64,000 nucleotides of DNA from Owenia fusiformis (lineage: Eukaryota > Annelida > Polychaeta > Sabellida > Oweniidae): positions 5,651,341 to 5,715,340 of the forward strand of contig CAIIXF020000008.1 in the NCBI GenBank assembly GCA_903813345.2, written 5' to 3'. Below, piece after piece: positions 976 to 54,687 of the stretch. The notes beneath the pieces were generated by a model. The model was given only the letters and a program-made list of their open reading frames with translations. It ran no database searches and was not told the origin of the DNA. Within the stretch, counting starts at the first letter, position 1. Each line of letters starts with the position of its first letter. Both the position numbers and the translations under genes were made by a program.

Positions 976-8229
<7,254 letters not shown>

Positions 8230-15600: not shown

Positions 15601-18600
15601 TTCCATGCCTTTGCTATCTTAAAATCAATGCAGAAAAAGCTTGTAATAGCAGAGAAAATTAAAGAGAAATGCTATCACATACCTCCTGTATGACATGAGA
15701 AGAAAACCAAGGATGAATGATATACATGTGTTTTGAATTAGGGATTTCACAACCAAGTAGCTCGAACTAAAAACTAATAGCCTTTTACCTACTCCTATAC
15801 CCAAACAAAACTAACTCTTTGATGAGCATTTTGTTTCAAAAATACTAACTAATGTTGAACAGGGGACTAACTACAGAGTGAGCTAAAAAAGGTAACACAA
15901 TTTGATAACTCTGTCATTCAGCATGGGTTATTACATTAAACAAAGGATAATTGTGCCAAATATGACTTTAAACCAAGGCTAAATGACTGAGTTACTAACA
16001 TTCATTATTTGGGTTACCTTTTTTGCACTTTACAACAGTTGTCTGTATAATAAATATTAATATAATATCTTTTAATCTCACCGTAATGAGTTAGGTGACA
16101 CCATTCCTGACACTCTGGAGCCTGGTCTATCTAGGGGCGGGGGCCCATTCAACAATGGGGGTAGATCTCTCCTGGGTAAAGGTCTGATTAGCCCCTCACG
16201 GGATGTCTGGTCTAGCTTGCGTTCAGTTTCTAACAATCTGTAAGAGAAGAAAGTTATTCAATATGAAAAGAGCAATATCTCTAAAAATGTCCAAGTGGGG
16301 AGCCACATTTCTAACAAATTGTGAAGATATGCATATTAAATTAAGATGATAGTTTGATTGTATTACATTTGCAGCGCTTCAATTGGGTTACTACTGCAGC
16401 CAAATTTCATACAAAACTGACATCATCAGTGTGTGTGATGTCAGTTTGTGTATATCATATCATGTTTTATGGGAGTTTACAGTTAGCAAATAAATATTAG
16501 ATCATTGAAAGATGGCACTGTATACAGCAAAAATGGCAACTTTCCAATAGATGGCAGATAATGACTTATAACTTCAAGTTGTATTTGACGATTCATGTGT
16601 TTTTGGAGAAGGTCCACGATCAACATCACATAAATAAACCATTGTTCTTATTCATTTTCCCTGTCTCTATTCAATGTGAATTTCAACATAATGTTGCAAG
16701 TAATTTCCAACATGTTACAAATGTGTACAAAATGTCCCCACCTTTTGGTGATCCCGTCAAATGGTTATCCCAAAAATTGAGTAGACAAGACTTTACCGAC
16801 ACAATTTGAGGATGGAAAATCCAAAATGGCCACCTTAAAATTTACCCAGAATGCCAAAAATTAATCAGTTCTAGATTTTCATACTAAGAACCACCCCTGA
16901 AAATTTGAAATTGATCCGTCACACAGTTAACCAGAAAACATGTAAACAAGACTTTACAGACGAGATTTGAGGACAGAAAATCCAAAATGGCTGCCTTGAC
17001 ATTTATCCAGAATGCCAAAAAACTAATCTGTTCTCTAATATGTCCAAATGTATTCATCGGTTAGGTAAAGATAATTAATTTGTATTACTTTCCTCAAATC
17101 ACTAAACCAAGCACCAGCTACGCCTAGAGATAGACCTCCTAGTGACAGTGTAGATAGGGAAATTAGTGTAGTGTTACCTTATATTAGTACTATTGCTCCC
17201 AAACTTCAACGCATCTTTCAAGAAGCAGGAGTTAAGACTAGTTTTAAGTCTGTTCAAACCTTACGTCAAATGTTAGTATCACCCAAAGATCCCACCCCCA
17301 CAGGTGAGAGATCAGGATAATATACCAAATTGAATGTAAGGACTGTAGTGAACTCTACATAGGGGAAACCGGTAGAGCGATTGATACAAGAGTTAAGGAA
17401 CACAAGGACGCTTTTAGACTGAACAATCCCAATAAATCCGCCATCGCTGAACATATAGTTTCCAAAGCGCATAGGATTAACTGGGAGTACAAAATCCTAG
17501 ATAGAGAACCCCATTACTTTAAACGGAAAGTAAAGGAAGCACTTCATATTCATACAAGCAAGCCACAACTTAACAGGGACTTTGGATTTAAGGTTTCCCC
17601 GGGACTGTTGGAACTACACAGGAGTAAAACCCAAACCAGGTCAAGGGTCAGCCCATTTCCCGCCAATATATCATCTTGACAAAGGTAGTAGCTGCTACCG
17701 AAAGCTCGAAAAAGTAAGTTATTTTGGTTAGTGATTTGAGGAAAGTAATACAAATTAATAATCTGTTCTCGATATTCATACTAAGAATCATCCCTGAAAA
17801 TTTGAAATTGATCTACCAAACGGTTCACCTGGAAATGCGTAGACATTGGCTTTACAAACAAGATTTTAGGAGAGAAAATCTAAAATGGCTACCTTGATAT
17901 TTACCCAGAATGCCAAAAAACTAATCAGATCTAGATTTTCATACTAAGAATCATCCCTGAAAATTTGAAATTGATCTTCCAAACGGTTCACCTAAAACGT
18001 ATAGACAAGACTTTACGGGCAAGATTTTAAGACGAAAAATCCAAAATGGCTGCCTTGACATTTACCCAGAATGCCCAACAACTAATCAGATCTAGATTTT
18101 CATACTAAGAATCATCCCTGAAAATTTCAAATTGATCTACCAAACGGTTCACATGGAAATGCGTAGAGACAAGACTTTACAAGACTTTACAGACAAGATT
18201 TTAGCACGGAAAATCCAAAATGGCTGCCTTGACATTTACCCAGAATGCCCAACAACTAATCAGATCTAGATTTTCATACTAAGAATCATCTCTGAAAATC
18301 TGAAATTGATCTACCAAACGGTTCACCTGAAAACGCATAGACAAGACTTTACAGACAAGGTTTTAGGACAGAAAAATCCAAAATGGCCGACAATAAAAAA
18401 GTGATTATGAGGTTTTGCTGATTTCTTTTTACAAAATCATCACATATAACTACTGTTAACAATAACATAGGCTTTTACAACAAAGTACACCTGAAATTAT
18501 TTATAAGGCTACTAAATAGTTAAAGTATGAAAACTGAAAAACACCATTCAATATGATACAAAGTATTATCGTGCGCTAACTTTCCTTAAAACATTCAAAA

Positions 18601-21529
18601 TGGCTGACATGACTAAGCAAACAGGTCCAAAACCTAATCAGATCTAGAATGAAGTGAGCTGAACAAGATTTTAAAGTTTTAAAAGCAACTGTGAAGCCAT
18701 TTTTCTTAAAGTTTGCAGACAAGGATTTTAGCATTTGACTTCAAAATGGCTGACAGGAAGTAGGTATCGAGTTAATTTTTTTTCGTCCACATCTGTATGC
18801 ACTCATAAGTTATCCCTGAAATTTTGAAGGTGATATCTGTAGGGGTTTTGGAGAAAACTGCCAGACGTACGGACAGACGGACAGACAGACGGACGCGCCT
18901 AGGCCGACAATATGGCCCCACATTATGTGGTGGGGACATAAAAAGTGAATCTCAATATCAAAAAATGTGATCAGCAAATTAAAGGAAAGTGATACCCTGC
19001 TATTTTAGCACACATTATTTGGCAAAATTCTTACTTCTGTCTGAGCACTGCATTGTTTTCTTTTTCTTCTTTAAGTTCTCTCTCCTTCTTTCTTTGCTCA
19101 ATCTGCAATAATAAAAAAAAAAAAAATCTCAACATATAATATTCCTATATATTTTCATAACTTAATGCTTAAAAAGTCAAATGCATTTTTGATAATTTAC
19201 ATGGTAATGATAGAAACAAGATTATTTTATTTGAGAAATTAATATAAAAAGGACTGATTACTCCAACAATAACATGAGGAATTAACATGCAAAATGTCAC
19301 CACCTGTCAATTGTTACAGACATCGCACACCAAATGCTGAACACCATCCATAAAAATTTTAGTGACTGTAACAATATGTCACCTCTTGTGATGGTGGTGA
19401 CATAATAAACATGATAGATATCGGAATTGTTACTGACATCAGTCTGATACTCATCATATCTTTCTGTTTCCCTTGAACACAACTCATATGGCTGAGAAGA
19501 AATGAGATGCAATGGTTTATCATGATGAACAATCATATTTTAAGAAAAAGTTTCAAGTAAAAATTAAAAGACAATAAAACAATTTACTTCAGAAGTTCTT
19601 CTATTATCTTAAAAATTACCCATCTCTGTTGATGCTAACACAATAATAATGGTGGTAGATGAATTAGATTGGGACTTGGTTCAAGGACATTATTACATAT
19701 ATCATGGGGTTATAGTTTTCTTTATCTAGGACCATCAATACCATTACAATGTTCACCTCACTGTTTCATAAATGTTAGCATAGAACATTAAAATAAATAT
19801 ATATGATTAACATGTAGTATGCTGAGCTCCAATGATTTTGAGAAATTTTATAGAGTAAGCTACTCGTTATGTATTATCATCACTGAAATTATAGCAAATG
19901 GCAGGTATTTGGCACACAGTGGGAACACGCTTAATGAATGACTGATAAGACTTATAAGTCCAAAAATAATATGCTTATTGTTTAATCATACAATCCCAGG
20001 CACTTATCACATATGAGTATATTTCATAACCATTCTTGCAAATTTATAAATCTATTGTTGATCTAAACTATGATACCCATGTAAAAAAGTTATTATTAAG
20101 TTATGATTGCTAACAAAAAGAACCAACAACAATGCAATGTAGGTCTGGAGCCAGGGAGGGGGATCTCCTAAACATGTAGACCTACGTTTTAAACTGGGCA
20201 ATTAATAAACTGGCATTACTGGAATTTTTTTTAATTTGGCATTAATTTTCAAAATTCGGGCCAGAATTTTTTCTGGAAGATTTTGCCCCCCTCTGGATTT
20301 TTTTATGAATTATTTTGAAGGTCAACACACTATATGGGTTGTTTTAGGACATTTCTAATGACTACCTTGCCGAATTCCTAACCTGGTGAGCAGTAGGACA
20401 AGTTCCAAAAACTACCTGGGGATTGTTTCAGAGCTAATAAGAGGTCAGCGATCGGGTTTGACTCTGGGAGGCATGGCAGGTACTTTTGATATCTAAATGA
20501 GTTGCCCAGTAACTGGCAGTTGCTAAGCTACATATCATTATGAATCAAAATCATCCTTTTGGATTACTTGGGATAAGAAACCATTATTTTATCAAACAAT
20601 TATTTAGCATGAGATTATATCTATAAGGGATATAATAATACAAATACACAAGAACACAAAGTGTAAAATATTACAATGACTTACATTTGAAAGAGAACAA
20701 AAAAGCAATATTTGTGACTTAGAATTTTTAACTAGTTTATTTTAGTCACACGCAATATAACATAAAACAGGGCTTCAAAATCCAGAATATATTCTTCCTT
20801 TTGACCCCCTGCGATAAGCAGTTAGCATTTCCCCGATTAAAAACTCGCAATCTGATTGGCTGTCGCAACACTGCAACAGAAATCATGTATAAGTCATTGC
20901 GCATAATTAAATCAAGAAATTCAGTTAAATCGGGCGCTTCCAAATTGGTTATAGCAGGGGGAAGAAGAAGGTACGGATTCTGGAACCTGCTTAGGAGGAT
21001 GATAAAACACATGTTTTGGAGAAATCTCCACATGACCATGATACCTGCCTTTATGGCCAATTTTACTGGGCGTTTCTGCAATCAATAGTCTTTTTATGAT
21101 AGTGACATTTCTACAATTAATGAGAGTGTTTCTGCAATCAATAAGAATGTTTCTGCAATTAATGAAGTTTCTACAATTATGCAGAGTGTTTCTGCAATAA
21201 ATGAGATCATTCCTGCAATTCATGAGAATATTTCTACAGGCCTGTCAACTGTCCCGCAATTTGTGTATTTGTCACGCATTTGCTGAAGAATTTGAAGTCA
21301 CGCCAGTTATTTTTGCGTGACAGAAAATGTCACGCAAATACGCATTTTACCTGGTAATTGTCAAGCAAAAATAATTCTGTAGAAAAATTTCTAAAAAAGA
21401 TCGTCTACACAGCAAAAATACGAACGCCGGAAAAAAATGTACGCATTTCGTTCGGACTTTTCACGCGAATTACGTATATGTCACGCATTCCGTTCGAAAT
21501 TTTTCGTACCTACCCCCCCCCCCCCCCCC

Positions 21530-21573
<44 letters not shown>

Positions 21574-24500
21574 TTGACGCATGTATGAACCCCGAGCGTA
21601 GCGAGCGCGAAAAATTTGAGGTGTTCAAAATTTGGCAAGATGTAATAAAATTTAAACCAAGGTGTTCAAAATTTGAATCAAGGTGTCCAGATTTGGACCA
21701 AGGTGTCCACATTTTGAGGGGAGGTGTTCAACATTTCCAAGTCACTCATGTTAGGTGTTCCCAAGTTGACAGGCCTGTTTCTATGAATTATGAGAATGTT
21801 TCTTAACATTTCTTTTTATATCACGAGAGTGTTTCTTTCTGTTATTAGACTGTTTCTTAACATACGAATGTGTAGGTTCAAGTTCTGTGCATCCTCCAAG
21901 CTTATATTTTCTTGTGTACTCTGCCATGAACTCATATCTCTGAAGTCTATTATCTAATCTAGCCATTGGGTTACGAATGAACTCCTTTGAGTCACTTGTC
22001 CGGTTATGAGGTATATGTGAGACCCAACAATCTGGGAGAACTTTAAATCTGTAGCCAGCAGCTTTTAACTCCATAAAATAGCTAACTTTATTCATGCCGT
22101 ATGCCACAAAGTTTTCATTAAACAAGGGAATTTCACTATGCTTTCTTATTACAACATAAGGTTCATATTTAACTTGGTATTTCTGAACCTCATATGAATA
22201 ATTTGTATAAAACCATTTAATATATTCTGTTGATCTTTGATTATCTGAAGTTTGGCCATTAAAAGTTTCGATACTGCCTTCTCTGTAAAGTTGTCGCACT
22301 TTTGATTTTGATTTTGGAAAGTCAGGATTTTTAAAAGGATTCTTTAAATATGCAAAGGCAGGAGCAACAAAGGCAGTTTTGTTAATATAAGGTCTCCAAG
22401 TATCACTTTGAAGATGTTGTTTTATCACAGCTGTGGCATTTATTTGAAAGTCAATTGATGGCAAAAAGTCAGCGTCTGATAGTAGCATAAACTCGGATTG
22501 GACACTTTGAATTGCATAATTCCTCAATGTATTTATCGGATACTTTTCGTTCAAGTATGCTCCATACAGAATTGTGATTTCACATCTATGTTTGACATTT
22601 CTAAATTTTTGTTTGATATGCTCGTCGAAATTGACACCACGTTCTTGCATATCAGAGTGAATGTAAACTGCAGAGATGTAGATTGCTATGGAAACCGGAC
22701 CATTCCAGAAAGGTAGGATATCAAGCATCATGTCCAGTCGGTCAATAGTTGCTTGGGTTACAAGTGTGATGGTTTCCACGGAGCTTATGTTTTGAGGATT
22801 TAATGTAAAATTTGTGATTCTAAATTTCATAGTTTTTGAAACAATAGCTGTTTTTTCTGGACATTCAACGATGAAGTTCTCACTTTTAAGATCAAGTGGC
22901 ATTGTAATGTTATCAACAATTGGTGAAATTTTTACATCCGTAAATGAGACTTTTCCATTATATCCAGAACACCCAAGAGATAGCGTAATGCTTGAGAGAG
23001 CAGCACCATCTTTAGGCAGCATGTAGGTATCACTCTGATGCTGTGTACCACCTTTAGGTGAAAACTGCAACTGAATGGTATAGTTTGAACCATTTGCAAA
23101 TTTTAACAGTGCCATGGCGCTATAATGAAAGACTGTAGTGTTCCTCTCTAGTAGCTTTTTACTTGAGCTTTTCACTGAAAAATACACTCCTTTTAAAGGT
23201 GCAGATTCCCGTATGGGTATGTATTGGTATATTGCACGTAGGTCACTTATACAAGGTACCGTAAAGGTATTCTTATGTTTCGAGTACCAGTGTTCCTCCC
23301 TAACCAACCACCAACCTTTTGATAAAGACACATCACTATTGTCAACTATATAACTTGATGATAAAGTTATATTTAGTTGAATATATTCAAAATGTTTCAC
23401 ATTAGATGTGATTTCATAATTGTCATTAGGAACCAGTGTATGTTTAGCAGTTAATATATCCATAGACCTAACTCTATTGTGATTCACAGGTACTTTCAGG
23501 ATATCTATTAATTTCTCTGTCCTCAGATTTTGCTCAGGGGTTATTGTCAGCACGATGAACATGTAGCATGCAGCTACGAAAATCACAGTAACTTTCCTCT
23601 TTTTCAGCCACCTAACAGGTTTAATAGCATAAAATTTCAATATATCCATTTTACTTTGACAGAAATGTTTCTTAATATCCATCGATATGCACCAGCTTAT
23701 TAAGTATTTTACTATATTCTTCACTTTATATTGTGTAAATCTGTGTCAGCAGCAGCCCTGGAGTTAAAGCCCATAACTTCAACTATGCATGCAGACAACA
23801 TCAATGAGTGAGCCATGGATGACAATTGAGTGAATTTCTGGCACCAACCTTCACTTCAGGGGGCCCCTGGGCCCAATGAGGTGATCATGCTATCTGGCAT
23901 ACTGTAGGCCTAGTCTGTTTTGACATAGTGTTTAATAAATGTAAACTAAGCTAAACTTAAACTGACCACTTAAAATAAGGCTGAAATAACACTATCCCTT
24001 AATTCAACTATGGTTTCAGTTGACTGCATGTTTAATATGTTTACTGTGTATACTTTATAATCAGACCCAGTTTGAATAGGTGCATAATGTCTATGTTTAG
24101 CAAATTATCACACATGATTTCACATGAGGCTGTTAGTTTGGTGATATTTCATCAGTGGTTTGGAAGATGCTATAGCAAAGGAGAATCATCCAGTCCTCTA
24201 ATCATATTATTACAATAACATGACATAAAAATAACTTATTATGTAAAAACTTGATAACATTCCTTTGGATTTCACTCAAAATTGCCGTCAATGTCATTAG
24301 ACTTTGGCAATTGTTTAAGTTTGTATATCTGTATTTTATGGAATAACAATAAAGATGATTAATAAAAAAAAAAAAAAATCATATTATTGTTCATAAGATT
24401 TTAACATTTAACTGGTCCTCTTGTTGTGTTAGTTTTGGCTTGGTTTGCAATTTTTCATAAATAGGGGAAAAGTATTTCATAATTATTGTACAAATGTTAA

Positions 24501-27500
24501 TATAACCACTCAAGGCTTCACTGTCATGAATTTACCTATCACATCAGGCAATCTGCAGTTCACTCTGCCATCTTGGCATTTAAATGAAGTTTTACTTAGC
24601 ATAATTAACGTAATGAACTCAATTAGTCATTTAGGGAGTTGGGAAATCCATTAATATTTGACAGTTAAATTGGAAAATTTCAATGAAATAATAACTACAT
24701 GACTTAACAAGGCCTTACATGACACAACATGCAAACGATTACAAAACTGGTTCAGTTTTTTTATATGCAAATTGCCAAGGTTTAATTCTGAATACTGAAT
24801 GCCAGCCAGAACGTTTATTTGTGGTGACATAAAAATGGTGACCCCAAGTAGCAAGTTCCACTGAATTAAATATGTTTTTTTCAAATCTTTCCTCATTTCA
24901 AACATTTAATAGCCTAGTGACATTTTTAATTGGTGACTTCATCGCAAATACAAAGCTTGGTATGGGGGAAACAAGACAAAATTGTCACAATTTTACAATA
25001 TATATAAAAAAAAGTGAACCCCTGCGACTGGCTATTTTTTTCTTAATACTTGCATGAATTGCCTCATATTATCATATGTTTATTTATTTGCAATAAGATT
25101 TTACACTTGTTAACATACTAGGAAGGCCTATTTTTGGTCAGATAGAAAGATAAGTATCGATCTGAGTCATAAAGAAAAAGCAAGAACTATAATTTCTGGG
25201 CTCAATCTAGCACATCACTGATCTTTACTTCAGTAAAATGTTTTCCATGTTATAGGCAGATGTTCAAAATCACAAGTTTTCTTGATGACGAAATAGTTTT
25301 CTTCATCTTACTTATTTATCTTACGATACTTTTACAGAATGGTAAAAAAAATGGAAACCCTCATACCCTTTTTCCTCATATCTTTGTCATTTAAATAACT
25401 CCCTGATATTTTACTTATTTGTACATCATTCGATTTCCTAACAGCCTATTTTATTCCATGACCATCAGCTTAATATTCACAATGTTACAGCACTTTAAAA
25501 AAACAAAACATGCCCCAGTGGCCACTATTGCGCTGTCGGGAAACCTGCACTTATCGTCCAAAGACCAAAATGTCTCTACCTGTCGGTATATGGCAGAGAC
25601 AAAGTGTATGAGAATGACCTTAGGTCAATTGCAAACCTAAAAAGTGAGAGTCATCCATGTCATTCAGGCCATACTATCAGTCTGATGGTCATGAAATATG
25701 GTAGGGTAGTAGGAAATTGAATGATGTACAAATGTGTGAAATATCAGAGTGTAATATTTTAAAGATATACATGTAAGGAAAATATAGGGTTTCCAATTTT
25801 TTTACCATCCTGTAATATTCCATTTTCCATATATGGTGGTTGAAAATTCTTGCTTCAAATATAATCATGGCAACTATTTATTTTCATTTAGACCCTTTAT
25901 GTCTGTTAAACTTTCTTATTCAGGAACCCCTGAAGATTTGTTTATCCCATTTCAACAACTGCAAAAGTGATTCTTGCAACTCCATCAAAATATTTTTGAA
26001 ATATAAGCATTATACAAAATGTTATGCCCTAATAAAAAAATATGGTCATTTTTGGTAGGTAGTATTTAGGAGTTTAAGAAATTCTCATTATATAATGACT
26101 TACCCAGTTTTCATGAGCTCGTTTCTCTTGTTGCGCTATCTGCTGTTTATAATGTCTTTCTGACTCCTCCATCTCCTTTCTTATACTCTCAAGCATTAAC
26201 CTAAAAGAAACAAAATGCAATAGTGTCTAACTGTTGAATGCAAATAAATAAAGCCATTAACATAACAAAATATAGACGCGAGACACCAACAACTTATCAC
26301 CAACCACTCATCATTACAATATGTCACCGCTTATTGGTGGTGAGAAGTGGTGACATAATTATGAGGAGAAACTAAAGATATGATTGAATTTGTTCCAAAT
26401 CTCACCTGACATTATCGTGTTCCTCAACAGCATCAGATTTCTGTTTCTCTATACTGGACAATGTCCCTTCAGTTCTCTTACGCAATGCCTCCTGTTCTCC
26501 AAGCTCCCTAGAGTCATAGGAATATTGTACACATAATTGAAATGCTGCATTTTGATTGGTCAATGCACAATGCATGCTCAATATTTAATTCACTGTCCAC
26601 CACAGGGTGACGGTTAGAAATGCTGAAATCTTTTAGTATTTTACTGTATATCAAGTAAGCATGGTTTTGGAATCTATCATTTTTGCATGTGTATGTCAAC
26701 TTCTATTCCCCATCATAGCCATTTATTACATTTTATTCCAGGCAATTCCAATTTCTTAAAAATTTCATAAAAAGGCAATACCACTTTCTTTAAATTATTC
26801 ATGTATACACTGTAATTCCAACCCACCTTTGTAATGCAATTTCCTTTTCTTTAAAATAGCTGTTTAATACTTGTAGTTTTGTTTGAGCTTCTTCTGCTGA
26901 CTTCTCAGCTGACTGGTGACCTTCCTTGAGTGTTTCCAACTCTGTTTTCAGCTTCTCAACCTTATCTGAACAAACATTAAACAAAGAATTATTGATATTG
27001 TATCATAACATAATTATTATTTGTCCAATACATACAGAATTTCTTTTTTTCAGGGAAATTTTGTTTTGTGCTTCTATAACTCTCTGAATCTGAACAAATG
27101 TTGAACTGAATTCATAAAGATAAAGAGACGGAATGCTTGTTCACTAGCTATTATCTTCCAAGAACTAAGTTTAAACAAAGGTAGGGGGGGAATAAGAAAC
27201 ATTGACAGGTCTATGATTTGTAAAATAAAAATGTCATGATGATATTGTGGAATTGTTTTTTTGGGGAAGAATTAAAGATTACATGCTACTAGTATTTATT
27301 TTTTGTAGTTTCTCACCTTCCAATTCAGACCTCGATTCCCTTTCAATTCTCAACTGACTACTGAGGTGGTCCCTGTCTTCCTGTACAACATTTAATCTTG
27401 CTTGGATCCTGGATACATCCACCATTGACTGGATCTTCTCATGGATATCAACCTCTGCAAACACATAGAACAGCATTAGTTCCCATAATGCAATTGGCCA

Positions 27501-30500
27501 GAATTTCCCAGGGTGCATCATGGTTTCCCATAATGCAGTTGCTATATGCATATGATCATAAAACTTAGCTATGACACATCATGCATCTGATATATATGAT
27601 AAATTGTTTAAATTCTTAATTGAGAATACTCAGTGCTCATTGCATCATAGAAAATATAGATAATGATTTTAAATAAAAGCAAGGAGAAACTAATACTTGG
27701 TTTTTCAGCCTCCTCTTCGTTTTCTTCCTCAGCTGCATCTTTGTCTTCATGTAAAGCTTTCAACTGAACAAAACAATCCTTCAAAACCTGCAATGTATTA
27801 TCATAATGTGTTTTACTTATCTAAACTTAAAATAATTTACAAGCAAGATACATCAACAGTATGTGACTTGTCAAATCATAATCGTACACATCCATTTCAG
27901 ATTTTGTTCAAATGTTTTTGGATGTTATACATGCATGGTTTGAAAATAAAATAAATATGAAAAGTTTTGCAGCTTGTAACGCTATTTTGTAAAGATGTGA
28001 CCTACAAATTACATGGATGTTATCAATCTATGGGATGCAGGCCTGTAGCCAGGGGGGGGGGGTTTGAGCAAACCCGCCCCCTGGCCAAAAAATCTTTCAA
28101 AATCATGCAGTTTTTTCACCATTCTGAGCACATTTTAAGTGATTTTGGTAATTTTTGGACCAAAATTGTCACAAGTGAACCCCCCTGGAATTTTTCAAAA
28201 AGTGAACCCCCCTTGGCAAATCCTGGCTACGGGCCTGGGGATGACACAATTGCTGCTTACTCTGTAGCACTATTTGTAAGATGTGGTTAATATTTTGATG
28301 AGTGTATCTTTGCACATTTGAAAATATTGAAACTTGCCAGTTTAATGTGTACTGCTTACACCAAATTTCATGTGCAACATAAATGTGTGTCAAACTTATA
28401 TCTTTATTCAAAAACTGCATTGTTCTTGTGTCAAGCTATAGAAATGATTCAATGTATTATTTTCAACTACATGTTCTAACCTCAATTTCATTATCCTTGT
28501 ATGAAATAGTTTCTTGAACTGTTTTTATATCAGCATCTTTCTGATCACACTGCTCCTCTAGATCTTTAAGTCTGAAATAAATACAAAATATGAAAAGAGT
28601 TTTCAGATTAGGTCCAGATTGAAATATGAAGGGCAAAAAAAGAAATTTCATATGTTATACTCAGCATAGAAACTGACATTATAATAATAAGGCAATTTTT
28701 TGGGGAAAATATTCGAAACCATGGAATATCAATTCTTAAGAAGTGATATTCGATAGTTTAAAAGTGATATTCAATGGTTTGATAATCTTACATGTTTTAC
28801 ACTCAAAGACAGAGTCATAAACCCTTCCTTGGAGGAGCCCTGTGTTTTTTTATGTACACCGATACACAGCCATACAAGTACACACCACAGCTTTTTATAT
28901 GAGTTGTCGACAACTCAGTCAAACACCCAGAATTACATAAAGCACAAACAAATTAGTCTGATCCTGGAATCAAACCTGGGGCCAAGCAACAGTGGTAGCC
29001 TTGACTCTGCCAATGAGCCATAGCGGGTGGAAATCACATGCTATTATTATTGAAGAAGTCTATAATGCAATAAATGAATAAGGAAAACTTACTTTTCTTT
29101 CCAATCTTCCTGTTCGTCTAAAAGTTGAGATTTTGTCTTCTGGACTTGGTTGATTTCTTCCTTTAGGTTGACAATCTGTGATTTGAGACTATCTTCTGTG
29201 CTTTCACTCTCATTCATGGAATCCTTCATCTGAATATTAGATAATACTTTCAAGTCACAATTTAATTTTTTTCACACTCAAAGTCAAGTGGTTATATAAC
29301 TTCTAAAGAATAACATTTTCATAAATTACAATTTACAAATCTATCTATTCTTCATCTAAGTTGAAATTAACCTTGACAAGACAATCAGAATGCTGCTAAA
29401 ATATTATCAAATAATACTAATAATACTTGCATTAAACAGCATAAATCAAAATGAGTTCTCACATTTAGAGAAGGTAATAAATAAACAAGTTAATTTACAA
29501 CCTTTGAAATGAGCAAGAAACATAATTGATTGGATTTACAGAATCTTCCTTGAGGATATTTAGTAAGAGTGCATGGACATTAAGGTTCAATACGAGCATA
29601 ATGTTACTGGATGCAAGTAAGAGAAAACTTTATAAATATAATTCAAATCCTGTGTTAATAACCTTTTTGATTTGGATTGTATTTGTCACTTGGATTATAT
29701 ATTCAATATGGATTTGCCCTGGTGATCAGGGTGCTCTGAAAGTGGGATATCAGAAAAGAATCGAATATATGCGATATAACACAGAGAGTTTCCAAGGATC
29801 TAACCAACACACCATAAACCATAATTCATGTAGCTTAGAATTTTTACGGGACTATTTTATGAGACACGAGCATCTGTACCAGGATGGCTCATGGGAAGGT
29901 AAAAACTGGATACCGAATGGTTGCGTCGTACCCATTTCCAGAGAAGAGATAGGGAAACATTTGAAGAAACGTGGTTTGAGAAAAATTACCATAATTGGAG
30001 ATTCAACAGCGTCAAAATTCAATATAGCATTCTTGAGGATGATCAAAAAAAGTGGCATTTGCAAAGTATTAAAAAAAGAAAAAGTAAAAGACAATTGCCC
30101 AAATAAAACATATTATGGTTTTCCAAATATGAATGTACATTCTCGAGATTGTAGCTCTTGTACATCCAAATTGAGTTTATGTAAACTCAACTCTTCTGAG
30201 CATACAATGTTTATAGATTACTTAGCTATGGAAAATTACATGGATTCCCACATGTCAATATTGCGTGGTAAACTTCCACACCCTGGGTCTGAAGTCTGTA
30301 GACAGAATCGCGAACAGAATAAAGATTGGGATGTTTATTGCCCTGAATCTATCACTACCCAACAGGTGCTTTTCAACGAGTACCTCCCAGCACAGAGAGT
30401 ATACCCTGATGTTATAATACTGGTGGGTAGCCAACATGAGACATTTAGGAGGAACACCAGGGCATCATCCAGGGCCCTCACATGGCTCCTAGACCTCATA

Positions 30501-33500
30501 GACCAACGTGTCAAAAACACAACCAGGGTATTATTCCTTGAACAAACTACAGGGAATGACAATCTTAAGCCAAATATTTTTCAAAAGTGGACAGGGGAAT
30601 CGAGACTGGAAGCAATCAGGGAGGATTCATTTAAGGTACTTTCTTCCGCATTGAAATATTCTAGTGTCCTGTATCCATTCTATGGATTGGCAAGTATAAG
30701 CAGAGATGTCATTTCATGGAACATGGATGGTGTACATTATCATAATGATTTTTATGAAGCAATGGTACATCTTATAATAGGTGCTTTGTGATAGGTTTTA
30801 CAAACAAACATTTAACTCAGAGCCCCAAGGGAACTTTTATGTTCACACAGTGTATTAACATAATAGGACAAGGCATAAACAAGTCCAAATGTCACCACCT
30901 AGTTGCTCACAATATTATTAGTTCAAACTTAAGTCAGATTTGAATTTTTGAGAACTCAGTAGATGATTTTGAAAAAAAGGTCAATTTGAAAGAAATTTTT
31001 TGACCCTGAGAAGGTCATTGAAGGAGAAATCTTATAAGTCAGATTTGAACTTCTGAGAACTTGAAGATGATTTTGAAAAAAAGATTGGTCAATTTGAAGC
31101 AAGTTGAAAAAACACCTTTTTGACCTTGGAAATATCATTGAAGATCAAATCTATATTCAGATTTGAACTTTTGAGAACTTGTAGATGATTTTGAAAAAAA
31201 ATTGGTCAATTTAAAGCAAGTTGAAAAAAGACCTTTTTAACCATTTTTGACCTTGAAAAGGTCATTGAAGGTAAAATCTTATTCTAGAGTCAGATTTGAG
31301 CTTCTGAAAACTTGAAGATGATTTTGAAAAAAATTGGTCAATTTGAAGCAAGTTGAAAAAAACCTTTTTTAACCTTTTTTACCTTAAAAGGTCATCGAAT
31401 GTCAAATCTTAATTCAAGAGTCAGATTTGAACTTCTGAAAACATGTAGATGATTTTGAAAAAAATTTAAATCAGTCTAAACAGTATTTGTCAAGTTATTG
31501 GAAGTTATAAGAAATTGTTACAGACGCCGATCGCCAACCGCCATCTGCCGATCACCAACTGGCATCCACCGATTGCCATCACAAAAAAATGGAGACCATA
31601 ACAATATGTCACCAGATGATTTTGAAAAAAAATTGCAAAGCAAAGCAAAGCAAGCTCCCACAATGCATTAGCACTTACCTCTTGAACTTGAGTTTCCAAG
31701 GCAGTAGCATGTTCTTGAAGTTGGACCATCTGCTCCTTCTCTGACGTGAGTTCAGCATCCTTTGCCTTGTAGGCGACCTCCCATTGGTTGATGGTCTGAG
31801 CATAGGTGTTCAGTTGCTCCTGGTACTGACCCATTGAATCTGTCAAGTCTTTGTTTTGCACCTGGATACAACAGTACAATAGCATTTATTCAATATTTAA
31901 TTGTCTCATTTTTAGCATTCATATAAAATTCTGAATGTTGTATACAATTTGAAACAAGTTGATTGGAGGATAATAGTTCACCTATGTAAGCTAAAAACAT
32001 TCACAAAATGCCTCAATACAATAGATTGTTCCGATAAATCCTGCCACCTTTTAATATATCTGTGAAATTTTGATATAATGGCTAGCTTGATGATGTCATA
32101 GGTTGTATTTTTCAAAATTAGCAATAAGTTGATCCTGTTTTTGCATGGCCAAATTTCTACCTACACCATTAATTCAGCCAATATATCATCATTTTTCTGA
32201 TATATCAAAAGGTGGCAGGATTTATCGGAACGGATAATTTCAAACTATTTTTACTCTTTTAATCTTATTTTCTAAATACCACGACAACCACGACACTTTT
32301 TAAGATTCATATACTGTAATATTTATCTTTTGATGTTTTTGAGTATCTTATGTTTTTTCAAAGGTCAAATAAGAGATTTCATTAATCAAAGCTCTTACTT
32401 TCAGAGTGTCTATTTCTTTCCTCATCTTCCCCTCTCTCTCCTTCGACTTCTCCACTTTCTCCTGCATCGGCTTGCTCAGTCTTTCATACTCTATAAGCTG
32501 CAGGAGAAACATTCATCATTATTCAAACAGTTCATACATGTATAAGAGGAAGAGGGTCAAAGGTCACCCATATTTTGAATAAAAAGATTTTAAATCTAAT
32601 TTCATTTTCATCATAAAATGGTATCATGGTATCAAAAACAGCTAAATAACAAGTGATTGTTAAAATTTGTTATTTCCTTATACATGTCAGCTATATATTA
32701 TAATATAAGACAATATGAAAGCATGATTTCCCTGAATGAAAGAGTGAATATCTGTCTGACCTGTTGCTTCATAACTGTGTTGTCTTCTTCTAAGGCCTCA
32801 TTCATCTTCGTTGTTTGATACAACTTCTCTTCAAACTTACGAGCTTCCGCTACAAATAATAGTATATAAACTTTAAATTCTATTAATTAGTATGTAACTT
32901 CATTTATGCCTTAATGGGCTTCATCATTGCCATGGACTTGCATGATATCTGAACTTTAAAATACAAAACTTCAAGATTGGAAGTTCAAATCAAAGATTGT
33001 CAGTTATCTTCAATATTTCCTATATTCCCAATTGTTTAAAATGAAAATAAATAATGTTTATTGAATTAAATGTAGTTGTGTTATTTTGTATTTTGTATCG
33101 TAACTTGCAAATATTGAAATAAATCAATTGAAATATGTGATTTTATAAGAAGGTCAGTAAACACTTATTAACCAGAGTGTCATTAAAAGAAAGTTCGTAA
33201 AGTTACGAATTTGTTAATCAGTTGTTGTAACCATGGATATGATGACATCACAGTTAGAGAACAATGAACTTTACCAATTGTTTACTTTAAAAAGTTTCTG
33301 TTAATGGCCCCAAGGTTAATTCTGTCCATACTGAAGAATTGTAATAAAGGGAATTATGCAAATACAATATTACCCAATGGATCTGGTCCTTTTTTCTTTG
33401 AGCCACATGTACAGAAAGTATACACAACTGATGAGATGAGGACGATGAGTAGGAACAAGGCAGAGCGCAGGGGAGGTAGTCCCAGGACACCTTGCATAGA

Positions 33501-36500
33501 AGCTGGTAGCTGAAATACATTATTTGTAACAAGAACATTTGTATTTGTTAGTCGTAACAGTCATATCTTGATGGTGTTGAATTCCTCAGAAGAAGCCAAC
33601 TGACGATGAACTGACATTAGCTATAGCAAGAATGTTTGTGTCTTAACGACCCTTTGAGTTACTGTACCTAGGCAGCTCTGGTTTTACCTGAGTTATCAAC
33701 GAACTAATTAACCAAAACCAGACTGCAATTATAGCTTAGGTACTCATTTAATATTTCCAGTCATATTCTAATTGTGTGATCAAGTTTGAATTTTTCAAAA
33801 TAAATCATGATCTCTTACCAGATTCACAATGGGCTGCATGATACCCTCAACAGCATGAATTCCAGATCCAACAGTTTCAAGTACTTCTGCAGAATCTGAC
33901 TCATTTTCATCTTTTTCTAACTGGGCCTCATCAGGTATTTTACGAGATTGGAATCCTGAATCATTTTCAAATGGGTCTCCTTCTTTTAAGATGGTTGGGG
34001 GAGTGACAGTCTCCTCTGTTAAAGGAGGAACAGGTTCCTCATATTCACTTGTGGTACTTTCCTCACTCTTTGACTCTATGTCTTCAACTGTTTCTACAGT
34101 GTCAGTAGTTTTAGGGGGTTCCAAGTTTTTCTGGGAGTTGTCTTCCTTATCAGATTCATAACCATCATCTTTATTATCAGAAGTTTCAGGGGCATCTGGG
34201 GCAGTAGTTTCTTCATTTTCCTTGGGTTCATCTTCATCACTTTTATTGTCTGATGTCTCTGGAGTTTCTACATTTTTCTGAGTGTCTTCAGACTCGGATT
34301 CTTCTTCTTTTTTTAGATCATCGCCATCGGGGACCTTAGGGCTTGATTCATCTACAGGTGTAGCCGCTTCATCAGCAGTATTAGATGCATCATCTGATGT
34401 TTCTTTATTTCCCTCAACACTACCATCGGGAGCATTAAGATTATCAGAATCAGGTTCTTTTGACTCTTCAGGTTTAACATTATCTAAATCTTTGTTATCT
34501 TCACTGGAATCCATTGGTTCATTGGTCTTTGGTTCAGCTTGATTATTTGTGTTCTCAAGTGGTTTTCTGGACATAAAATCCTCAGTTTGATAAGGGTCTT
34601 TCACACCTGCCTGTGTAGCCTTTACCAAGTCATCAAGGTTTGGTAAATCCACTTTAAGAGGATCTGAGTCAGTCGTATTGACTGCGATTGTGTCAGTTTC
34701 TGTAGCCATGATATTGGTATCAACTGGGGATACCTCAGATTCTTTAAGTTCAGTTTCTTCATGGAAAGGTTCAACTTTGGTTGCTTTGATTGACTCAGAT
34801 GGTTTAGCCAGTGATGTGATTGTAGCCTCTTTTAGAATTGGTGTAGCAACTGGAATATTGCTTGATTTCAAATCAACAGATGGGGCCAAAGTCTCTTCAA
34901 AGTCTTCCAAGGGGAAGGCAGTACCATCAATCATTGTCATTCCTGGTGGAGCACTTTCCACCTGGGTAGGTTTTATATCAACATCTGGAGTACCATTTTC
35001 CTTTGAACTATCTTTGTTGGACTCAGCTTCTGCTTCAGAAATTTTCTGTTCTTCTGTTTCAGAAACCTTTGGAATTTCCTGCTGTGGATCTTTGGTGGAC
35101 TCGGGGATATTTTGCTTTTTCTGCTCTTGCTCCTGTTTTTCTTTCAAAAGCTTCTCCTTTCTCTCCTGCGCTTCTTTTCTTTTCTGATCTTCTCTTGCTC
35201 TCATTTGTTCGTATCTTTTCCTCTCTTGCTCTTCACGTCTTAGTTCCTGTTCACGTCGTCGTTCTTCTATTCTTTTCTGCTCCTCAATACGTTTATTCCG
35301 TTGCTCCTCCATTTGTTTGTGCACTTTTTCTTCAGCTGAAAGTTGCTCCTTTTCAGCATGCTGTTTTGCTTCAAGCTCCTTCTGTATTTCTTCTTGTTTG
35401 ATTTTCTCTTCTTCCTGTTTTCTGTTTTCTTCCTCATCTTTCTTTTGTTTCAGCAATCTCTCCTCCTCTAGTCTCTTTTCTTCAATTGCCTCTTGCTGGT
35501 CCTTAAGTCGCTTTTCTTCTACAATCCTTTTATCTTCTTCTAGCTTTCTTTTCTCTTCTTCAAGCTTCTGCTGTTCTTCAAACTTTCGTTTTTCTTCTTC
35601 AATCCTTTTCTGTTCTTCCAGTTTTCTATTTTCTTCTTCAATTTTTTTCTGTTCTTCTAATTTTTTATTTTCTTCTTCAATTCTTTTTTGTTCTTCTAGT
35701 TTTTTATTTTCTTCTTCAATTCTCCTTTGTTCTTCTAGTTTTCTTTTTTCTTCTTCAATTTTTTTCTGTTCTTCTAATTTTTTATTTTCTTCTTCAATTC
35801 TTTTTTGTTCTTCTAGTTTTTCATTTTCTTCTTCAATTCTCCTTTGTTCTTCTTGGAGTCGTTCTTCTTCAATCTTTTGCTGTCTCATTTCCTCCATCTC
35901 AATCTGCTTCTTCTTGATCTCTAATTGTCTCTGAAGGTCTTCAGCTTCAGCTGGTTCCTTTTGCTGAGTTTGCTCATCCTGCGTTACCTTTGATCCTTCA
36001 GTCTCAACTTCCTCTTGCACTCCCTTGTCCTTTGTTCCATCTGTTTCCTCCTCTTTTACAGTCTTTTCTGTTGTTGCTTCTTGTTGTTGAGAACCATTAG
36101 GGTCTGCTGTGAAACCAATATCAACTGGTTTAAAAACAGGAGTTGGTTGAACAGCATCATCTGTATGAGTGGCTGGCTCATTGTCTTTAACTGGTTTATC
36201 CTCATTTTCAACATTTTCCCCTGGAGTTTTATCAATATCATCAAGTGGTGCTCCACCTATATTTTCATCTACTGGATTCTTTTCTTCTTTGGTTGCATCA
36301 ATAGGTTGTTTGTCCAAGTCATCTGGAAAAAATCCACAAAATTTTGAATATTATACAAAGCTATACAAATGAGAAATTCTGATCAAATAAGTTCTTAGAG
36401 CCATATATGACTCTACCATGATTGTAGCAATCTACGGTATATCTCCATTAGATCATAAACTGAACTTCAATCTAAAAGTTCTCTCTTACCTTTATCCTTG

Positions 36501-42968: not shown

Positions 42969-43167
42969 CTCCACACGTCATCAGAATCAGCGTAATCCGG
43001 CTGAAAAGAGGAGCTCTTCAAAAGAGATTTGCCAAGTGTACACATCAAAATTTCTCAGTTTATTATTGCGTTTTGCGTTTTAACCAACTTATAATGTGGA
43101 ATTTGGTGCTTGACTATAGCAACATGAATACTTGAAGAATCCAGAGGACTAATTAATATAGAAAAAA
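42969..43167. promoter_or_regulatory. Shared bidirectional promoter of TANGO1 and COG2
   Basis: Only 199 bp separate the two start codons, so both 5' UTRs and core promoters must overlap here unless upstream exons exist. On the minus strand at 42974-42982 it reads GATGACGTG, containing the TGACGTG core of CREB3/CrebA/XBP1-type factors that drive secretory genes. No TATA box is evident. Confidence 0.5.
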
Positions 43168-46100
43168 ATGTCTGCAGATTCCGGGAAAAATCCACTCCCA
43201 AGTGGACCTTCAAATTTGTGTTTCAACAAGGAAGAGTTTATGAAGGTAGGGAGGGGATTGTATCCATGCATGCCCATTCTGATTGTTGGGCATATAATTC
43301 CCAGGCACGGTTATGGGAAGTCCTCCATATATTACTTATATTAATATACCTCCTAGATGGAGGACTTCCCACTATCCGTGTTCCCAGGATATAATTTCAC
43401 TGCAATTTCCACAGGGCAGTACAGTAGGTTGACTAGAAGTACATACTGGGAGCCTATAGAGTACAGTACAGTAGTTTCAGCCTTATCCCGTGCCTGGCAC
43501 GGGATAAGTTTGAGTCCTCAAACTTCAAAATCAGGAACTATCATCATTTGAACAAAACTGCACTTCATTCAAGCAAATAATGTATCGTTCAAAATCAAAA
43601 AATTACTTTTTTGTAAAAGTGCAGAACTACTTACTAATACCAGTTATATTTCTTGTTGATTACAGAATGACTTCAATACAGACCAGTTTGTTATGGAGTG
43701 TAGGCGGCATGTCTCTCTTGAGACTCTAAGAGATGATCTACTGGTTTACCTGAAGGTGCTGAGGAGTGCCATGATAGAACTCATCAACAAAGACTATGCA
43801 GATTTTGTTAATCTCTCAACTAACCTAGTAAGTGATGAGTTGGGCATCTCTGAATACTTGTATGTACATAGAGATGGTGTTACAGCATTAAAAGTGTTCA
43901 AATTAGCAACATGTCGTTATTGTCTTGAAAAGGCATAAAGCCAACTGTAAAATGTATTGACATCTGTGAATGCAATTTTATAACCACTGTCACAGAATTC
44001 ACTTTTTCCACAATTAGTGAAGGAATATAGACCAAACAAGTCAATGTTTTCTTATATGTCTCGAAATCTGTGCCATAGAACTAAAATTAAATAATCACAT
44101 TGCAGGGTGTCTAATACTGTCTATTCTCTATTCAGCCCTCTATGCATGACATGCATTCCCATGAAAAGTTCATACAAGCCATTTTTAATGTTTGATTCAA
44201 ATATATATATCAGAAATATTTATATTGTGTTGTAGGTTGGGATGGACAAAGCCATAGGTAACCTGTCTACCCCACTGGGTCAACTAAAGGAAGAGGTTCT
44301 GGTAAGTTAAGTCTTGGGACTCTCAAAAGTGTTCCACTAACAGAGGTGTTCATCATCTTGAGGTGTTCCACTTTACAGGTTCCGCTGTAATGAGCAATAA
44401 TTACAGATTGTTCAAAATTGCTGTCAGATTTTACAAGATAATACAATGTATTTACAGGGTGTCTAGAATTCAATTTTTTACTTGTTTCAGAGTGTCCAAA
44501 AATCAATGGATGATGCTATGGAGCATATTGAGGAAAAGATGAAAAGACAAAAACAGATAAGAGATCAAAAGGTTGGTTATTATTAAGTTTTTTTTATAAG
44601 GTTATTTCATTTCCATATTTGAATCATATAACATACAATAATACATGGATATGGAGAAACAAGCCTACGTTTGCACATTATTGGCTTGTGAAAATACATT
44701 TTATACAGTGGATATTTACATGTGCAATAATTTACATAAATGCAGTCTTCAGATAGGATGAAGTTGAGTGATGATGTTATGAAATTTGGCAAAGTACAGT
44801 AGCTATGACACTGGTTTCACAATATTTTGTTAATAAAATCTGATGATAGATTTATAAGTATGGAGTTAAGCTTTGGTGATAGTTCTTTATCGCCAAATAA
44901 AATCATATCAACCTTGTCAACGTGGCTAATAAGTAATAATACTAAAAGCACAGCCTCTTACACTGTATTATTGTATTGTATTCTTTGTACAAATGAATAA
45001 CTTAATAAATAAAAAAAACTAAAAAACTTGCCATATTTACGTTTACTGGAGACAAGTTTGAGGTCGGGGTTATTATTAAGTTATTTTGGTCAAGCTCTGA
45101 CTAGGATTAAGAAGAGCACTAAAATCACTTTAGAAATAACAAAAGTTATCAGTCTTTCTTAATGAGATGCTATATTGGAACCTTTATACATAGGCTTCTC
45201 CTTAAGAGACATAATAATGCTGTTAAATTGATGCAATTGCTTAATTGTTCCGTATCACCAGACAACCGTCCTCTAAGTTGTCTTTAAAATGATCCTTATT
45301 GATTTTTATACTGATTTAACCAAATGTTCTTCCTCACTTACAGGTCTGTCTGCAACGGCTGATGAGTGTCTCTGCATCAGTAGAGAAGATGGAGAGACTT
45401 TTGGGTATTGCTGAGGATCATGGGAGTGGCACACAGTATACTGGGTACTTTGCACCTCTTTTTGTTTTCAAATTATCCTTTTTGTCTTCCATTTTGCTTT
45501 TATAGGATGATTTTTTATTGATCCTCTCAGTTTAGCAGATAATTTGAACCAAATGAAAAACATATTACTGACTAGATGATTAAAAGAAACAATGGTTTTG
45601 TTTGGTTTTGTAGCAACAGTGATTTTATTTCTTATGTAACTAGTCTGGCCTTACTATACTCGAGAACTTCAATTCTCACACAATCTATGTAAATAATTAT
45701 GTTGAATTATATAGAAATAAATAACAATAACCTATAAAAAAAAGCTTCAATTCTTCGTCATAAGGTGAAGTGGCATGTCCACATACATGTACATACAGTA
45801 ATCCTTATATGCTATACTGTGTTTCAGTGAGCTGACAGGACATCTTATAGAGCGAGTAGCATCAGAGTTCAACAAACTACAATTTAACGTTAACAAAACT
45901 AGAGGGCACCCTTTGGTGGAAACAATAAGACCTGTAAGTTAATGTGCAATATGCATGTCAGTGTGCAATACACGTTTTGATTTGTAATAAACATGTCAGT
46001 ATGCAATACACATACGTACATGTCAAAGTGCAATGTAAATTTGTAATTGTTATTGTGAAATATGCAAGTCAGTGTGCAATATGTATGTCACCGACTCATT

Positions 46101-52100: not shown

Positions 52101-54687
52101 AGTTAGAAATACATTAATTAATATATTCATTCAAACAGCACTAGAATGCGGGAAGAAAGAGCAATGGTGACAAAATGCAGACAGAATTTTCTGTAAGGGT
52201 TTCAAACATTTCTGGACACAATCATACATGTACTTCATGTGTACTGTTATTTTTAGTGCTGTATTTATAGATATAATTTCACATATTAAAATCAAATTTT
52301 GCAGCAATGACTTCAAATTCGGAACCACACCCATATCACATTTTCTTCAATAACTCCAAACATGTGTAAACATTGACCATGTGCATATAAATTCAGATTT
52401 CCCGAGCTCTGTCCTATTCGAGTACCATGCACCCCTGCATGGATTTCAGTTGGATTCGCCTTTTATACGTGAGCCGACACACTCGCAAACGCTGATTGGA
52501 TAAAGATTGCGAGAATCTTTAAAGCAAGATGGTATTGCAACAATACAAAAGGAGAAACTCAGAGTTAGCTAAACTACCTGTAAATTCTTTTATTGAACTT
52601 CATTCAAGAGGAAGATTAATGTTGGTATATACAATGTAATGGACCCACTGTCTGGAGATTCTTTCCAATTTATTCTACCAATAAATTATCTACTGGATAG
52701 TTATATGTCACATGTATATTTTCAGATTTCTGAAATGTTTGATGAAATAATGTCTCCTAAGTTGGCACTGATTGGTTGTCATGACAACCCTTTACTTACA
52801 GGTAAGCAATCAGGAAAATGAACATGAACATAGAAAGGAGTGGTTGTTGAAACTATCTGACACAGTCTATGCAGCCAATTTTAAACTATTCCTTAGCTGT
52901 TATTTTGAACATGGTACATGGTGGGCCAAAATAATGTAACCCAAACAAATGTTTGTAACTCAGTCAGTCAGCATGGGTTTAAGGTCATATTTTACAGAAT
53001 TAATCCTCGTTCAATGTTCTTTCATTCTACTAAGTTTCTGTATATGTATTTCAGAGAGTTTGAATGAATCTAAAGTTATGATCTTGGCTCCCCTGCCTGT
53101 GTTCAACGAATACATCGTGGATGACATCACAAACCAATGTTCAGTCCATCTGAAACTAGTCAATGATATTCCAAGGCTTTATAGGAAAACCAACAGAGAT
53201 GTAAGTTCATAATGTCAACACAAATAGCAACAAAATTTTCTCACCCACGAGATTGTTGCGCTGCTGCATACTTTCACTATAAAGTACGAGCCTAACTCAT
53301 TTTATGCAAATTTCGACTCCATTTTTGTATGTAATTCGATTTTGGAATTTTCCCTTTCACTAATTTTATCAAAAGAATGTGCAACTTTCTATTTTGTTTT
53401 AATGACCGTTCACATATAAATCGCATTATGTGTATACTGATCAAATTTTATATCGCTTGCTTGTCAATCTTTTGATTCAGGGTCCCTCAGTTGTACAAGT
53501 ATACAGTTTTACATTCATGAACTTAAATACAGTGTAAATATCCTTTCATATCTTTTCATTTCTAGATACCTTCCAAAGCTTCCAACTACATTTGCAACAT
53601 CTATAAACCAATCAAAATCTTTGTCTCGGAGCACCAAGGGGCCCTCAGCAAAGACAAACAGATTGAGATTATAACATGTGTTCTCAATAACATCCTGAAA
53701 TCGTAAGTTACAGATATTAAGTAAAAATGTGAAGTTGTGAAATTGGGTTCCCAGAGTGGAAACTAGTGGTGCAAAAATCCTTAGTGAACATACACCTGAA
53801 GAAGTGGATGGGAGGTAGCCCAACTAAAGACTTGTTGCAAAACTTATGGGAAACATTTTAGTTTGACTTTTATAGGTTTAGGAAGATGAGTCTGTTAAGA
53901 GAAAAAACAACAACACATTTGCATCCATTTTTAAGATATTGGCATTTGTGAAATACTTTTGAAATAAGAAAATTAATCTTCTGAATTAGAATAACTGATT
54001 TAAGATTACATTGTATGAATAAGATGAAAATATCCACAACAATGAACTATTTTCTTTACATTCTAGATATTACGGAATAACGTCAGATTTGTTGACATCA
54101 GTTAAAAAGATGGAGGACAGTTTAAAAAGGTTGAAGAAGGCACGTAAAACTGACAAGAGTGCAGGTACCACAGGAATGAGTGATGACGATAAAATACGAC
54201 TACAGCTCTCAATAGATGTCACTGAGTTTAAGAATCAGGTATATAGAAAGAGGGGGATATGAATTTAAAAGTTGATTAACAACTTAAAAAAAAAAAATTT
54301 TTAGATTAATTTTTCATGAAGGTTTCAAGTATGATATCACTTTCAGTAAATTTGAATAAAAAATGATGAAAATGATGATAATTTCTCCTTGCATCTAAAT
54401 TTGTCATGTCATCATGTGACATGTAAATCCAGATTGTATTATGTTATGAATGTGGTCCATGTGGTATTTGTGGAAAATACATGGTGATTCAGTTGGACAT
54501 TTCCCCAGAAATATTGTATTTTACCAAAATTTCAACAATGCATTTACACAGTAAACACATGTTGTCTATGAAATATGTATTTTCTATTTTCCAGTTTGAG
54601 GAATTGAATCTTGAGGCAAGTAAAGTTGAGGACTTTAAAAAGATGCAAGATCTGGTTGAAAGTGCAAGAACTGGAGTTACCACATGA
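43168..54687 (+). CDS. COG2: COG2, conserved oligomeric Golgi complex subunit 2 (18 exons, 719 aa)
   Basis: Lobe A subunit of the COG tethering complex, which captures vesicles for retrograde traffic within the Golgi. Exons: 43168-43245, 43666-43827, 44236-44301, 44491-44571, 45344-45444, 45828-45933, 46452-46631, 46967-47091, 47367-47487, 47774-47913, 49384-49445, 49863-50029, 51592-51738, 52726-52801, 53055-53200, 53566-53702, 54067-54238, 54595-54687. GT-AG borders and phases agree; the total is 2160 nt including TGA. The N-terminus has the family signature CFNKEEFMK and LINKDYADFVNLSTNL. Coiled coil follows (residues about 90-160), then the helical-bundle legs (LRIYGTIDKMRDAE, WKLTLQHLSRYATWIEEV, VFNEYIVDDIT). 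Human COG2 is 738 aa, so this is full length. A proline-rich insert GPPPPPPITM sits in exon 13. Head-to-head with TANGO1. Confidence 0.95.
43301..43507. repeat. Inverted repeats and a perfect 25-bp palindrome in COG2 intron 1
   Basis: GGGAAGTCCTCCAT (ending 43327) is inverted at 43357 as ATGGAGGACTTCCC. Downstream, TTATCCCGTGCC-T-GGCACGGGATAA (43483-43507) is a perfect hairpin. Together they look like a degenerate MITE, and they lie less than 350 bp from the shared promoter. Confidence 0.55.
44572..45343. other. COG2 intron 4, no feature seen
   Basis: AT-rich intron. A short A-rich tail near 45000-45025 may be the end of a small retroelement; otherwise nothing recognisable. Confidence 0.4.
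45943..46190 (+). repeat. Degenerate minisatellite GTGCAATATRCATGTCA
   Basis: About ten variants of GTGCAATATGCATGTCA spaced 20-30 bp apart directly after the donor of COG2 exon 6. Confidence 0.6.
48150..49185. mobile_element. Mariner-like non-autonomous element, about 185-bp inverted arms
   Basis: CGAGGCCCGATCAGAAAGTA (48150) is inverted at the right end as TACTTTCTGATCGGGCCTCG (49166-49185), and TA flanks both ends (48148-48149, 49186-49187). The arms match through AACCAACTGCTC and on to GGCGGGGC. Terminal sequence and TA target fit the Tc1/mariner superfamily. The roughly 650-bp centre has no intact transposase and its short open frames were not recognised. It fills most of COG2 intron 10. 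Confidence 0.82.
49541..49770 (+). repeat. 29-bp minisatellite, about eight copies
   Basis: Units ATTGTAGAACTCAATGTATT + TTACAACAG with few substitutions, in COG2 intron 11. Each unit holds the dyad-like TTGTAGAA / TTTTACAA. Confidence 0.85.
50187..51394. mobile_element. Full-length copy of the CCCATCGAAC-family element with internal 165-bp repeats
   Basis: Left end ATCCCATCGAACGAAGTTTGG, a (GTCC)-rich run, then about four repeats of roughly 165 bp built on AATGGCCGCCATTTTAAC and GTAGTGGAGCGATTTTGTTC, and right end GTTCGATGGGATTCGCTACG with GTTGCCGTTGTTCTGG. The short inverted ends match the copy at 1651-2409. Non-coding; in COG2 intron 12. Confidence 0.78.
51739..52725. other. COG2 intron 13, no feature seen
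   Basis: AT-rich intron of about 1 kb. I see no exon, RNA gene or clear repeat. Confidence 0.5.

Follow-up and report, generated by a model that had tools for sequence, protein, structure and literature searches.

Protein genes located entirely within an intron of a longer, unrelated host gene represent a common and well-known arrangement in animal genomes. According to figures reported in PMC8467205, such nested genes constitute 4.3-8.7% of the protein genes of seven vertebrates; the values for human (4.4%) and mouse (4.3%) are about half that for Drosophila. The same source describes the internal genes as usually short and intronless, and places them on the strand opposite to the host in most simple pairs (74.3% of 296 in human, 77.8% of 248 in mouse). 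Other values, i.e. about 6% for the fly, 2.1% for the worm and 0.5% for human, are quoted in PMC3786989. In this study, we analyzed a 64,000-nucleotide (nt) stretch of the genome of the annelid Owenia fusiformis (contig CAIIXF020000008.1, positions 5,651,341 to 5,715,340; the whole of this stretch is referred to below as the window), which was judged to be eukaryotic by its spliced genes. Two genes, one encoding a GT49 glycosyltransferase (GT49) and the other a PC-esterase-like protein (PCE), each with a coding region made up of a single exon, are nested within separate introns of a TANGO1/MIA3-like gene (Table 1).

This arrangement resembles that of other animal nested genes (e.g. 2mit in timeless2 of Drosophila), in that an entire protein gene is contained in one intron of a longer host to which it is unrelated, and PCE, like most such genes, occupies the opposite strand. 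It differs in that a single host harbours two nested genes, in separate introns and on different strands, GT49 being on the strand of the host. A further difference is that 2mit itself has one intron, as stated in PMC3786989. Among the matches listed, there were no published titles on nested GT49, PC-esterase or TANGO1 genes.

The whole coding region of each nested gene is contained within a single intron, the splice sites of the host are intact on both sides, and the phases are consistent across introns 12 and 19. With respect to length, intron 19 ranks first and intron 12 third among the 21 introns of the host, which fits the "long, open intron" of the first-pass annotation; 1191 of the 2449 nt of intron 12 are PCE itself. 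The longest stop-free runs of introns 19 and 12 comprise 654 and 421 codons, respectively, compared with maxima of 251 and 203 codons in 500 order-2 Markov resamples per intron. Within the window these runs rank second (GT49) and third (PCE), behind the 851-codon frame of host exon 8. The corresponding stop-to-stop frames span positions 21781-23745 (minus strand; GT49) and 29526-30791 (plus strand; PCE). The two genes had previously been placed correctly, but with ends that delimit these frames and not the ATG-to-stop coding regions. An alternative start of GT49 is provided by a second ATG, at position 23649.

Table 1. Coordinates (positions in the window) of the host gene, the nested genes and associated features.
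Feature	Position	Strand	Description
TANGO1/MIA3-like host gene	13456-42968	minus	spliced model; ATG at 42968, stop at 13456; 22 coding exons, 1834 amino acids (aa)
Host hydrophobic/transmembrane exon	33374-33509	minus	by-eye reading of the spliced model
Host intron 12, containing PCE	29230-31678	minus	2449 nt, phase 0; flanking exons 31679-31861 and 29093-29229
Host intron 19, containing GT49	19103-26103	minus	7001 nt, phase 0; flanking exons 26104-26200 and 19035-19102
GT49 glycosyltransferase coding region	21781-23682	minus	single exon, 633 aa; open frame, Pfam PF13896
Candidate poly-A signal of GT49	20736-20741	minus	first AATAAA downstream, 1039 nt past the stop codon
PCE (PC-esterase-like membrane protein)	29601-30791	plus	single exon, 396 aa; open frame, motifs

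The host gene model was obtained by listing candidate minus-strand exons and splice sites, which were then joined by hand. An automatic first model missed exons and contained one false exon, and hand-picked splice sites were used instead. All 21 introns have AG/GT at both ends, the phases are consistent and there are no internal stops. Among the sites used, acceptors score between -2.0 and 5.5 and donors between -2.4 and 5.5, a few of the boundaries being weak. The first 371 aa of the predicted protein match Pfam SH3_2 (E=3.1e-7), and the TANGO1 homolog chain 7r3m (E=2.3e-8) ranks first among 89 distinct PDB sequences with E up to 0.1, followed by the MIA protein. Both searches point to the N-terminal lumenal MIA/SH3 domain typical of TANGO1/MIA3 and, together with the 22-exon model, bear out the earlier recognition of the host as a TANGO1-type gene. 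The remaining layout, read from the spliced model by eye, comprises (i) a signal peptide, preceding the MIA/SH3 domain, (ii) an acidic lumenal region with E/K repeats, (iii) the transmembrane (TM) exon, (iv) short, coiled-coil-like exons (exons 10 to 20) and (v) a proline-rich C-terminus. By eye, this matches the TANGO1 layout of a TM segment, cytosolic coiled coils and a proline-rich C-terminus. A Pfam search with the C-terminal 637 aa yielded no match above the cut-off; WBP-1 (E=0.024) fell under it and was taken as chance. Exon 8 contains a 39-bp tandem repeat (approximately 8.8 copies, 35512-35853), encoding the E/K/Q-rich repeat of the lumenal region.

The assignment of the predicted 633-aa protein to the GT49 family is firm, as judged from its similarity to Pfam PF13896 (E=2.3e-40; 139.4 bits vs a cut-off of 27), which extends over positions 2-329 of the 329 of the profile. 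In this respect, as well as in its host-strand placement in an intron and its uninterrupted coding region, the gene agrees with the first-pass annotation. Two LARGE1 sequences are also similar to the protein (E=6.9e-35 and 8.3e-35; about 290 alignable residues), and its DxD motif (DAD, residues 403-405) is aligned with the DID of LARGE1. Mutation of the DxD motif abolishes the function of B4GAT1, as reported in PMC4227050. The protein resembles LARGE1 and B4GAT1 in combining a GT49 domain, located in its C-terminal half, with one hydrophobic segment near the N-terminus, a presumed anchor. In LARGE, a GT8 domain stands before GT49; in contrast, no GT8 domain was found in the protein described here, for which PF13896 was the sole Pfam family at E up to 1, and which had no NCBIfam match. 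Also unlike in LARGE1 and B4GAT1, the anchor and the domain are separated by about 250 residues (22780-23541) for which Pfam gave nothing at E up to 10 and the PDB nothing credible. This stretch contains 7 of the frame's 11 N-glycosylation sequons and, by eye, could constitute a carbohydrate-binding beta domain. A tandem cyanovirin-N match (PDB) of the N-terminal region (E=0.031), no stretch of which passes alone, was taken as chance, and the AlphaFold2 single-sequence model, with a mean predicted local distance difference test (pLDDT) score of 34.0, was too poor for a GT-A fold to be judged or for a fold search. The protein is expected to be a type II membrane enzyme acting in the lumen of the Golgi, where it would transfer a sugar; for the characterized relatives LARGE1 and B4GAT1, this sugar is glucuronic acid.

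An element of approximately 540 bp (21237-21777) sits in a 21-bp tandem array next to the GT49 gene. It has terminal inverted repeats (CAGGCCTGTCAACT) and carries a C/G run of 60 nt together with a minisatellite of 20-21 bp. The 6-bp sequence TAGAAA, an apparent target duplication of the element, takes in the stop codon of GT49; by eye, the codons of the GT49 C-tail continue the 21-bp repeat of the array.

The PC-esterases, as defined by Anantharaman and Aravind, are characterized by a GDS motif, W or H replacing the Asn of the SGNH group, and a DxxH motif (features given in PMC2824669). The PCE protein possesses (i) GDS (residues 133-135) following a hydrophobic run, (ii) H279 in the sequence VIILVGSQH, equated with the SGNH Asn position by eye, without alignment, and (iii) DGVH (residues 376-379), 17 residues from the protein end, ahead of a last helix that is visible in a low-confidence model only. 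With these motifs and its single hydrophobic segment (residues 18-36), which would act as an N-terminal anchor, it resembles CASD1, NXPE/Fam55 and PMR5. NXPE1, which acetylates sialic acid, likewise keeps GDS and DxxH, but according to PMC12216134 its catalytic Ser and Asp (S355, D526) are 171 residues apart, compared with 241 in PCE. The ordered motif pattern occurred in 0 of 20,000 shuffles of residues 41-396 (a looser GDS..DxxH pattern in 68 of 20,000) and, of the 58 frames of 90 aa or more in the window, only in that of PCE; the patterns were chosen after the sequence was seen, and these counts support membership without proving it. A match to DUF1965 (E=0.083-0.13) was under the cut-off and was taken as chance, and the AlphaFold2 single-sequence model (mean pLDDT 34.7) was too poor for an SGNH-type fold to be judged or for a fold search. 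It is likely, on the strength of the motifs, that PCE belongs to the PC-esterases. The strand, intron, open frame and motifs reported for it by the first-pass annotation, in which it appears as an SGNH/PC-esterase-like membrane protein, all stand, but the name PC-esterase is less firm, since it is based on motifs and not on a profile match. The absence of such a match sets PCE apart from CASD1, NXPE/Fam55 and PMR5, as does that of a second matched domain. According to PMC2824669, most members of the group escaped the profiles available at the time of that founding paper. PCE is expected to be a type II membrane protein, which would add or remove acyl groups on glycans.

It is quite probable that GT49 and PCE are independent single-exon genes, copies that reached long introns of TANGO1 through duplication or retroposition and were kept there. 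Each would have arisen most likely by gene duplication, probably via an RNA copy; the copies would have landed in TANGO1 introns and been retained, since insertion at such sites need not harm the host. Each of the two genes would have a promoter of its own, and the host would remove them together with its introns by splicing. This explanation is favored by the intact intron structures described above, the length of both frames relative to chance, the active-site residues kept in both proteins (DAD in GT49; GDS, H and DxxH in PCE) and the frequency of nested genes reported for animals. The coding regions (633 and 396 codons, one open frame each) lack introns, as is typical of retrogenes. The route via RNA is a guess drawn from the missing introns. 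Potential splice acceptors upstream of GT49 (24169, 23866 and 23757, with scores of 3.1, 3.2 and 1.9, respectively) leave room for a non-coding first exon. In molluscs, at least one gene family is reported to retain numerous members that lack introns and are probably retroposed (PMC6896357), and the Fam55 (NXPE) subfamily of PC-esterases is described as massively expanded in amphioxus and the snail Lottia (PMC2824669).

Several results weigh against this explanation. Recent retrocopies are expected to carry a poly-A tract and flanking direct repeats, although old events lose such marks. The A-runs downstream of GT49 and PCE reach 8 nt at most, with no longer poly-A tract. The longest identical word shared by the 1.5-kb flanks of GT49 is of 11 nt, a length equal to the control median and reached in 86% of 300 random placements, and the flanks of PCE, which stop where the intron does (371 and 887 nt), share no word of 11 nt or more. 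Retroposition, put forward in the first-pass annotation, fits the uninterrupted coding regions, but inspection of both genes revealed neither a poly-A tract nor any unusual repeat in the flanks. On the strand of PCE, neither AATAAA nor ATTAAA occurs in the remaining 887 nt of intron 12, and there is no splice acceptor scoring above 0 at 29230-29620, upstream of PCE; the bounds of any PCE transcript were therefore not found. PCE has no Pfam match above the cut-off and no PC-esterase match (PF13839 or other) at E up to 10, where weak ones may be hidden by the HMMER filters; it also has no NCBIfam match, and its PDB matches (E 0.54 or more) are at chance level. Scans for homologues, which reach close relatives only and covered viral and prokaryotic collections, gave 4 and 1 pattern matches in viral contigs and 21 and 35 in genome_contigs (queried with PCE in one scan and the GT49 domain alone in the other), none of which was confirmed as a relative. 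Finally, the position of GT49 on the host strand is the minority orientation among nested pairs.

The lack of homologues showing selection and of a poly-A signal for PCE would also be compatible with inserted copies that are open by youth alone, i.e. unexpressed pseudogenes in waiting. In molluscs, intron-poor copies of nicotinic acetylcholine receptor genes are more often silent than intron-rich ones, as reported in PMC6896357. We consider this unlikely, because a recent RNA-mediated copy should keep its poly-A tract and target duplication, neither of which was found. Moreover, GT49 is distant from LARGE1 (E=6.9e-35) and yet retains DxD and about 290 alignable residues, which needs long selection, possibly in the parent gene.

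It is unlikely that the nesting is functional, i.e. that both enzymes are kept in TANGO1 because chromatin or transcription shared with it leads to glycan modification being co-expressed with the export of cargo. The association of a TANGO1-like host with two products that look like components of the secretory pathway is a suggestive coincidence, spotted after the fact, and COG2, another Golgi-traffic gene, begins near the start of the host and runs in the opposite direction. However, GT49 and PCE point opposite ways, and the longest identical words shared by the 400-nt upstream stretches of GT49, PCE and the host are at the control level in five of six comparisons; the sixth, a 12-nt word common to PCE and the host, is reached by 4% of control pairs and is unremarkable among six. 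In addition, 109 human and 752 fly host-nested pairs are reported to show no significant expression correlation (PMC3786989), and RNA-seq of the fly showed divergence, in contrast to early microarray work, in which weak positive correlations were reported (summarized in PMC8467205). A function of the nesting itself is supported by no test run here, none of them direct. Should the nesting prove to be conserved, or the genes co-expressed with TANGO1, gene layout would tie glycan modification to cargo export; as it stands, the locus is a further example of nested genes without introns.

It is very unlikely that the GT49 exon, besides its own transcript, serves as an alternative last exon of TANGO1, joined to exon 17 or 18 to give a TANGO1-GT49 fusion with a lumenal glycosyltransferase in place of the proline-rich tail: GT49 is on the host strand, acceptor 23740 (score 1.3, the 94th percentile of window AGs and within the host acceptor range of -2.0 to 5.5) is in frame with GT49 and of a phase that suits the exon 17 and 18 donors, and the topology would fit (the cytosolic coiled coil would be followed by an anchor whose C-terminal side is lumenal), but a score this high is reached by roughly one AG in 17, the natural donor is exon 19, whose in-phase acceptors either score poorly (-6.0 for 23718 and -4.2 for 23670) or run into a stop after three codons (23757), and GT49 possesses ATGs and a hydrophobic anchor of its own. 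Such an isoform, if real, would tie glycan extension to exit sites of the endoplasmic reticulum.

The plus-strand COG2 gene, which runs away from the host, was recognized by matches to COG2_N (E=4.5e-22; 43660-43935) and COG2_C (E=2.3e-19; 54023-54259). The frame with the COG2_N match begins approximately 0.7 kb from the host ATG (positions 42969-43660 lie between). It is possible that the host and COG2, both of which are secretory-pathway genes, share a two-way promoter.

A tblastn search of the remainder of the window (E up to 1) detected no paralogues of GT49 or PCE, and a scan of the window for RNA families gave no match at gathering scores. Host intron 20 contains a fragment of a GIY-YIG domain (17308-17679; PF01541, E=1.8e-6), presumably a remnant of a Penelope-like element; inverted repeats of 42 bp lie on either side of it (17069-17110 and 17723-17764), with 161-174-bp tandem repeats nearby. 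Downstream of the host, on the same strand, a gene of the carboxylesterase family is present in pieces (2385-5543; PF00135, E=1.8e-15, 6.7e-14 and 5.8e-10).

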